Assembly (NCBI GenBank): GCA_018057825.1
Contig: JAGPCY010000002.1
Coordinates: forward strand, 124,001 to 188,000
Length of the DNA stretch: 64,000 bases
Direction: 5' to 3'
From: Kofleriaceae bacterium
Lineage (GTDB): Bacteria > Myxococcota_A > Polyangia > Haliangiales > Haliangiaceae
The translations under genes and the position numbers were made by a program. The notes beneath the pieces were generated by a model, which was not told the origin of the DNA, did no database searches, and saw only the letters and a program-made list of their open reading frames with translations. Positions 41,804-43,302 of the stretch are shown here, piece by piece. Numbering within the stretch: position 1 is the stretch's first letter; each line of letters begins with the position of its first letter.

Positions 41804-42022
41804 ATGACGCGCCGCGGCCGGATCCTGGCGACCAAGTGGGGGCTCAACCCCAACTCGTCGAGCCTGGGCGTCGACGTCACCTTCCTCCTGGTCGGCGCGA
41901 CCGCGGTGGCGATGGCCACGCCGATCGTCGGCGCGCTCTTGCGCTGGCGCCGGCCGGCCGCGGCGCCGGCGGTCGAGTCGGCCGCGCCCCCCGCGCCGTC
42001 CGAGCCCGCCGAGCCGCGATGA
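41804..42022 (+). CDS. 72-residue peptide coupled to a radical SAM enzyme (RiPP-precursor candidate)
   Basis: A 72-residue ORF with a basic start (TRRGRILATKWG), a polar motif LNPNSSSLG at residues 14-22, a single hydrophobic helix about 23-47 (VDVTFLLVGATAVAMATPI and onward) and a Pro/Ala/Glu-rich tail. It has no cysteine. Its stop overlaps the start of the radical SAM/SPASM gene (ATGA), so the two are translated together. Short ORFs in this position are often precursors modified by the enzyme. The NPNSSS motif and the helix are the likely conserved parts. I do not recognise the family; it could alternatively be a small membrane anchor. Confidence 0.75.
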   Translation: MTRRGRILATKWGLNPNSSSLGVDVTFLLVGATAVAMATPIVGALLRWRRPAAAPAVESAAPPAPSEPAEPR

Positions 42023-43302
42023 TCCGTCGCGCCCTCGCCGCCGCCCGGACCTGGCTGGCGCCGTGGGCCGAGGCCCGCCGCCATCGCCTCGAGGCCTTCG
42101 GCGCGATCGTCCAGCTCACCCGGCCGCGGGCCCTGGTGTTCGTCGACCGCGATCGCGCGCGCGCCCTCGGCCTCGACGGCGGCGCGACCTGGGCCGGGCC
42201 AGCGCCCGGCGTCGACGACGCGCCCCTGGCCGCGCCCCTCGAGGCCCACCTCCAGCTCACCAACCGCTGCGCCGCCGGGTGCGCCGGCTGCTACACCGGG
42301 GCCAGCGCCGCGGCCGGCCCCGGCGAGTGGGGCCTGGCCGAGTGGCGGCGCGCCCTCGACGCCCTGGCCGACGCCGGGGTCTTCCACGTCGCCCTGGGCG
42401 GCGGCGAGAGCGCGACCCTGCCCTGGCTCGGCGCGCTGGTCGATCACGCCCGGGCCCGCGGCCTCATCCCCAACCTGACCACCAGCGGCCTGGCCGGCCT
42501 CGATCGCCTGCTGCCGATCGCCGATCGGTTCGGCCAGATCAATGTCTCGATCGACGGCCTGGGCCCGACCTACGCCGCGGTCCGGGGCTTCGACGGCTTC
42601 GCCCGCGCCGACGCCGCGGTCCGGGCCCTGCGCGGGGTCACGCCCCACGTCGGCATCAACGTCGTCGTCACCCGCGCCAACTTCGCCGAGCTGCCGGCGA
42701 TCTTCGCCTACGCCCGCCGCCGCCGCCTGGCCGAGGTCGAGCTCCTGCGGTGGAAGCCGTCGGGCCGCGGCGCCGCGGTCTACGAGCGCCTGCGCTGCAC
42801 CGACGCCCAGCATCGCGCGCTCCTGCCGACGGTCCTGGCCGCCGCGCGCAAGGCCCGGATCCGGGTCAAGCTCGACTGCTCGTACACGCCGATGATCGCG
42901 CACCACGATCCCGGGCCGCAGCTCTTGGCCCAGCTCGCGGTCTACGGCTGCGCCGGCGGCGACTTCCTGATCGGGGCCAAGCCGACCGGCGCGATCACCG
43001 CGTGCAGCTTCGCCGCGCCGCCGCCCCCCGACGGCGACCGCCGGCCGCGGGTCGACGACCTGGCCGGGTACTGGCGGCGCCCCGACGCCTTCGGTCGGTT
43101 CCGCACCTGGCGCGCCGCCGCCGAGCCGTGCGCGTCGTGCGCCTACCTGACGCAGTGCCGCGGCGGTTGCCGGGTGGTGAGCGCCCACGCCGGCGACCTG
43201 GGCGCCCCCGATCCCGAGTGCCCGCGGGTGGTCGATCACCGGCGCGACGTTGCGTTTGGCAACGAGGGCCGGCGGGTCGGCCGTCGCTTGCCCGTGGTAT
43301 AG
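42019..43302 (+). CDS. Radical SAM/SPASM maturase-like enzyme
   Basis: A protein of 427 residues. The radical SAM cluster motif is CAAGCAGC (Cys84, 88, 91) after HLQLTNR, a CxxxCxxC match. GGGESATLPWLGALVDHA is the GGE motif near 125. The C-terminal half has a SPASM-type set: CAGGDFLIGAKPTGAITAC, then CASCAYLTQCRGGC and a last Cys in DPECPRV, enough for two auxiliary Fe-S clusters. SPASM proteins mostly modify ribosomal peptides or act as enzyme maturases. Coupling to the 72-residue peptide makes that peptide the first candidate substrate. The PpsR-type gene starts seven bases later. Confidence 0.9.
   Translation: MIRRALAAARTWLAPWAEARRHRLEAFGAIVQLTRPRALVFVDRDRARALGLDGGATWAGPAPGVDDAPLAAPLEAHLQLTNRCAAGCAGCYTGASAAAGPGEWGLAEWRRALDALADAGVFHVALGGGESATLPWLGALVDHARARGLIPNLTTSGLAGLDRLLPIADRFGQINVSIDGLGPTYAAVRGFDGFARADAAVRALRGVTPHVGINVVVTRANFAELPAIFAYARRRRLAEVELLRWKPSGRGAAVYERLRCTDAQHRALLPTVLAAARKARIRVKLDCSYTPMIAHHDPGPQLLAQLAVYGCAGGDFLIGAKPTGAITACSFAAPPPPDGDRRPRVDDLAGYWRRPDAFGRFRTWRAAAEPCASCAYLTQCRGGCRVVSAHAGDLGAPDPECPRVVDHRRDVAFGNEGRRVGRRLPVV

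Follow-up and report, generated by a model that had tools for sequence, protein, structure and literature searches.

A small membrane peptide and a radical SAM/SPASM enzyme as a probable substrate-and-maturase pair in a Kofleriaceae bacterium and its relatives

Introduction

The window analysed here, a stretch of 64,000 nucleotides from a Kofleriaceae bacterium, carries a short gene for a peptide without cysteine, directly followed by a gene for a radical SAM/SPASM enzyme. This raises the question whether the two form a precursor and its maturase and, if so, which residue is altered and what the product is for. Small peptides paired with SPASM maturases are already known as a kind, and earlier pairs yielded new chemistry, i.e. 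PQQ, mycofactocin, streptide and the sactipeptides. The present family is set apart by a retained membrane segment, repeated fusion of both proteins and a Ser/Cys exchange. The following features are referred to below:

41804-42022, plus strand: small membrane peptide of 72 aa, probably the substrate of the enzyme that follows (ORF call, homologues, dN/dS)
41834-41869, plus strand: conserved stretch K11-W-G-L-N-P-N-S-S-S-L-G22 of the peptide (116 distinct motif instances)
41876-41944, plus strand: hydrophobic, probably membrane-spanning segment of the peptide, about residues 25-47 (hydropathy; hydrophobicity kept across the family)
42019-43302, plus strand: radical SAM/SPASM enzyme of 427 aa that probably matures the peptide (cysteine motifs, domain models, predicted structure)
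42076-42192, plus strand: beta-sheet domain at the N terminus of the enzyme, residues 20-58, R.E.FGAIVQL..PRALVFVDR...W (predicted structure; weakly similar to the corresponding part of SuiB)
42268-42291, plus strand: radical SAM cysteines C84xxxC88xxC91 (sequence, alignment of relatives)
42949-43221, plus strand: SPASM cysteines C311, C329, C371, C374, C380, C384 and C401 (domain model, alignment of relatives)
43310-44119, plus strand: PpsR-type kinase/pyrophosphorylase, a lineage-specific neighbour outside the core system (PF03618, E 1.8e-93)

The peptide gene and its conserved motif

The first open reading frame encodes MTRRGRILATKWGLNPNSSSLGVDVTFLLVGATAVAMATPIVGALLRWRRPAAAPAVESAAPPAPSEPAEPR, 72 aa with zero cysteines. 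Its TGA stop (42020-42022) overlaps the ATG of the enzyme (42019-42021), the overlap being 4 bases. The Cys-free peptide described in the original prediction is real and correctly placed. Full-length matches are found in 37 of the 95 genomes of the class (E < 1e-4, best E 2e-27). Compared with nine relatives over 43 codons, the window peptide has a dN/dS of 0.11-0.34 in eight cases and of 0.59 in the most distant comparison. The invariant serines are encoded by TCN as well as by AGY codons. Based on the homologues, the low dN/dS and the two types of Ser codons, this ORF goes beyond chance, and the reading as a chance ORF is excluded by homologues and selection. As judged from the codon comparisons, the peptide is under purifying selection.

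The single membrane-like helix that had been proposed corresponds to one hydrophobic segment with a Kyte-Doolittle mean of 2.0 over 21 residues. The best-conserved part, residues 5-24, lies N-terminal to this helix, and the Pro/Ala tail is not conserved among the homologues. The family signature is G-x-[N/G/A/S]-[P/A]-N-[S/C]-S-S-x-G or, in its longer form, [GR][IV]L[AR]V[KR]xG-x-[N/G/A/S]-[P/A]-N-[S/C]-S-S-x-G. In the 116 distinct instances, gathered by a search pattern which itself restricts the variation visible at motif positions, G13, N17, S19, S20 and G22 (window numbering) are near-invariant. Cysteine occurs at one motif position only, position 18, with Ser in 81 instances and Cys in 35. 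Asn at position 15 accompanies Ser18 in 80 of 81 cases and Cys18 in none of 35.

The Ser type and the Cys type (the latter with L134 and L136, for example) each form one branch of the enzyme tree. Therefore, the split represents a single evolutionary exchange and no repeated test. In the sister clade, Cys takes the place of a single Ser of the motif that the window peptide has, so the reaction need not use a thiol. The expectation that any modification would have to be independent of cysteine holds for the branch of the window, where the peptide is Cys-free.

The radical SAM/SPASM enzyme

The CxxxCxxC motif and the SPASM-type cysteines read from the sequence at the outset belong to a complete enzyme. 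It has the full seven-cysteine SPASM pattern (C311-x12-G324-x4-C329 / C371-x2-C374-x5-C380-x3-C384 / C401) next to the radical SAM motif, which places it among the radical SAM/SPASM proteins. An alignment of 73 relatives shows all ten of these cysteines, and C287 in addition, to be invariant. The curated cut-offs of Pfam Radical_SAM and of the SPASM domain model TIGR04085 (29.2 bits vs 27) are passed. No NCBIfam equivalog is reached, the scores being far below every such cut-off.

The best PDB profile match is the peptide maturase PqqE (6c8v, E 7e-36). An AlphaFold2 model (pLDDT 93.1, pTM 0.89) has its best structural match in SuiB (Z 28.6, 3.5 A over 367 residues), followed by SkfB (Z 27.2), CteB (24.2), PqqE (24.0), anSME (23.6) and ChlB (23.5). 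The N-terminal domain is predicted as a three-stranded sheet with two short helices. When isolated, its five best Foldseek matches are SuiB chains, all weak (E 1-2), and no clear match for its fold was obtained against the PDB, including with VIA-align. The RRE of RiPP maturases is an N-terminal winged helix that binds the leader; the sheet domain modelled here is possibly a reduced, RRE-like peptide-recognition element.

The enzyme positions that separate Ser from Cys clades (N152, E241, H123, I178, G172 and S288) lie mostly on or beside barrel strands of the predicted structure. This would be expected if the motif enters the active site, and is only suggestive since the Ser/Cys split is one event.

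Pairing of peptide and enzyme

Of the 95 class relatives, both genes are present in 41, the enzyme alone in 4, the peptide alone in none and neither gene in 50 (Fisher p 1e-22, not corrected for kinship). The four enzyme-only genomes (G001, G020, G021 and G081) are fragmented or incomplete drafts, in which the peptide profile search ran without a positive control. In outside families, 16 of 18 peptide-positive genomes also have the enzyme, and the two exceptions hold the weakest two peptide matches; weak matches in G062, G093, G264 and G287 were left out of the peptide count. Peptide distances follow enzyme distances (r = 0.86 for 76 pairs, r = 0.93 for 10 unlinked pairs), with 0 of 2000 permutations as high; shared species history explains part of this correlation.

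The peptide forms the N-terminal part of the enzyme ORF in 13 loci (L145 being one example). On the enzyme tree, these fusions take up at least three distinct positions, i.e. L084 beside the unfused L134, L137, and a branch comprising families f33 to f67. For 69 of the 95 unfused peptides, a same-strand enzyme lies within three genes, and in 44 the genes overlap. Homologues without a radical SAM neighbour, which the original prediction had named as evidence against itself, do exist (the other 26 of 95), some of them being second peptides of two-peptide cassettes. In L129, L131 and L133, extra Cys-type peptides lie away from the enzyme and immediately follow an exported protein (about 1250 aa), with the enzyme elsewhere in the genome. 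Yet an enzyme was found for every confident peptide where the rest of the genome was checked, and therefore the pairing stands.

A functionally unrelated small membrane protein adjoining a radical SAM gene by chance is a very improbable reading: it could point to the 11 class relatives in which both genes are kept though they are not neighbours, but it is contradicted by the co-occurrence, the mirrored divergence and the repeated fusion. These same comparisons support peptide and SPASM enzyme as a functional pair. We consider the peptide to be probably the substrate of the enzyme, and several peptides per enzyme, as in the two-peptide cassettes, fit a substrate better than a fixed subunit.

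Distribution across phyla

The peptide profile matches 80 of 379 sampled Myxococcota genomes, covering 53 genera. With the enzyme alignment as profile, related loci were collected from Geobacteraceae, other Desulfobacterota, Planctomycetota, Spirochaetota, Elusimicrobiota, Lentisphaerota and Fibrobacterota (organism names as in the sequence records; many are metagenome bins). Most such loci with enough flank encode an adjoining peptide of the form KG[RK][IV]LRVKxGYNPNSSS[IVLM]G. Peptide relatives with the invariant stretch followed by a hydrophobic segment adjoin the related enzymes in the first five of these groups and in Fibrobacterota.

No Pfam or NCBIfam family reached its cut-off for the peptide when window, Geobacter, two-peptide and Cys-type members were tried. 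Public genomes would therefore list it as a small unnamed protein at best. A literature search, with most subscription journals outside its reach, returned no paper on the motif strings together with radical SAM, nor on the cassette.

Comparison with known systems

The SPASM maturases PqqE and SuiB introduce C-C cross-links into PqqA and the streptide precursors. The present enzyme shares with them the radical SAM barrel, the seven-cysteine SPASM domain and a small peptide gene adjoining. However, identity is about 18-26%, the PqqE model TIGR02109 is scored at 84 bits vs a curated cut-off of 381, and targets of the Glu-Tyr and Lys-x3-Trp type are absent from the peptide, which moreover carries a membrane segment and is in some loci part of the enzyme ORF. 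A streptide-type Lys-Trp linkage relies on a conserved Lys and Trp; the Trp before G13, as in the KW of the window, is present in 34 of 116 instances and thus not conserved. The highest NCBIfam score of the enzyme, 128 bits vs a cut-off of 265, is for the mycofactocin maturase (TIGR03962), and the domain layout of MftC is the same. Unlike MftA, the peptide has no C-terminal Val-Tyr, and no mycofactocin genes were seen adjoining.

The GeoRSP radical SAM protein (TIGR04303; 87 bits vs 400), likewise a SPASM enzyme with a comparable score, is present in Geobacter too. Its model set contains no NPNSSS peptide, and a separate relative of the present family occurs in Geobacteraceae (L223, from the cultured Geomesophilobacter sediminis, L224 and L231). 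As in sactipeptide and ranthipeptide loci, a SPASM enzyme stands beside a short-peptide gene. In contrast, the thioethers of those products, formed by Cys in the precursor core, are impossible in the Cys-free window peptide. Of the proposed precursor-maturase pair of this kind, the functional pair holds up through co-occurrence without linkage, mirrored divergence and repeated fusion; a particular kinship to sactipeptides and ranthipeptides finds no support, as the peptide lacks Cys and the sister-clade Cys replaces a single Ser.

The enzymes anSME and AtsB are SPASM proteins as well (Z 23.6 for anSME). According to PMC8326336, formylglycine is made by anSME from either Ser or Cys by way of the beta-carbon, and these Ser-or-Cys targets match the exchange in the motif. 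However, the sulfatase motif (C/S)-x-P/A-x-R is absent here, the target would be a small membrane protein and no sulfatase, and identity is about 15%.

Neighbouring genes and the wider cassette

The PpsR gene, correctly named as the next gene and called an odd partner, adjoins the enzyme in 32 of 101 enzyme loci, all in the Haliangiales-type branch, where it is a conserved neighbour. As a core partner it is thereby ruled out. In the window, only peptide, enzyme and PpsR stand together. The region 5' of the peptide gene (35921-39910, plus strand) encodes an acyltransferase-like protein, an NtrC-type regulator and two small exported proteins, and this group is syntenic in many Haliangiales-type loci. 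A lipoprotein-like gene of 596 aa with a CTSCH (haem c-like) motif (39938-41728, minus strand) is oriented divergently to the peptide gene. Further downstream, at 52278-61723 (plus strand), there is a lipoprotein-like array of about 11 tandem paralogous ORFs of about 210 aa, spaced by about 790 bases and starting near AVWQGGCTYHVA(I/A)GG.

In the divergent set, neighbour clustering identified an exported TPR protein in 44 loci and an exported metallophosphoesterase in 28 (PF00149, many copies carrying GD and GNH[DE] motifs). Other partners that recur across phyla are two small membrane proteins, a porin-like protein and a TlpA-like redoxin (PF00578). A recurrent two-peptide order, peptide - redoxin - metallophosphoesterase - peptide - TPR - enzyme - PSE (L217, L218, L222, L228 and L230), spans Myxococcota, Desulfobacterota, Spirochaetota and Planctomycetota. 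With its TPR, metallophosphoesterase and redoxin genes, the wider cassette is envelope-related. In family f6, a gene that resembles a TRAP-type solute-binding protein, as judged by sequence reading only, adjoins the peptide. In 27 loci (e.g. L123 4130-4585 and L124 5307-5750), the cassette adjoins a small membrane protein whose hydrophobic stretches contain conserved His and which may be a haem b protein.

Proposed role and alternatives

Next to the computed pairing, conservation, enzyme class and cassette, we infer a substrate, a site, a chemistry, a location and a function as follows. On balance, we favour a substrate-and-maturase unit in which a motif residue is altered and the product is held in the membrane with a function in the envelope. 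In the cytoplasm, the SPASM enzyme would recognise the small protein by the conserved part at its N terminus, and a radical derived from SAM would alter a residue inside G-x-[N/G/A/S]-[P/A]-N-[S/C]-S-S-x-G before or during membrane insertion. The most likely single site would be the Ser/Cys of N-[S/C]-S-S, since only a carbon-centred reaction, e.g. oxidation of the beta-carbon, works equally on both. Formylglycine formation would be the best precedent for such a chemistry, with the Ser/Cys exchange pointing to a carbon of the residue; as the actual reaction, we regard it as doubtful. Cross-linking or epimerisation may take place instead. The hydrophobic segment would keep the altered protein in the cell membrane; there it would work with the exported TPR protein, the metallophosphoesterase and the redoxin, and would not be released as a free natural product. 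In the fused proteins, a cytoplasmic enzyme together with a single span would put the motif outside the membrane, which counts against this explanation. The charge pattern of the peptide fits no single topology decisively.

The main rival takes the peptide as a membrane anchor or as a regulatory subunit or activator, with the enzyme modifying another target instead, e.g. the TPR, metallophosphoesterase or PSE protein of the cassette. All branches keep the hydrophobic segment, and the whole peptide including this segment was repeatedly fused to the enzyme N terminus, as an anchor might be. However, one cassette can hold two peptides per enzyme, extra unlinked peptides exist, and the motif is conserved more strictly than anchoring requires while accepting Cys for Ser at one position. 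We consider this rival unlikely.

Somewhat less probable again is a precursor of a released RiPP, cross-linked by C-C, C-O or C-N bonds (e.g. at the conserved Lys, Asn or Ser), from which segment and tail are removed later. The closest structural matches do include the cross-linking maturases SuiB and PqqE, and Asn at the second motif position is found together with Ser, never with Cys, at the fifth, which is what a donor/acceptor exchange might produce; yet this pattern is one clade split, and the Trp of the window is not conserved. Moreover, no recurring protease or peptide exporter was found among the clustered conserved neighbours, and a short core could not arise from the fused forms without cleavage.

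Returning to the membrane-held product, the pair matters because it occurs in several phyla and combines a sharp target motif with a Ser/Cys exchange, natural enzyme-substrate fusions and an envelope cassette. As a more speculative extension, to which we give little weight at present, these would be widespread small membrane proteins whose radical-made residue (e.g. formylglycine at N-[S/C]-S-S) serves as a lasting functional group in an envelope machine, partnered by TPR protein, metallophosphoesterase and redoxin, rather than precursors of a secreted peptide.
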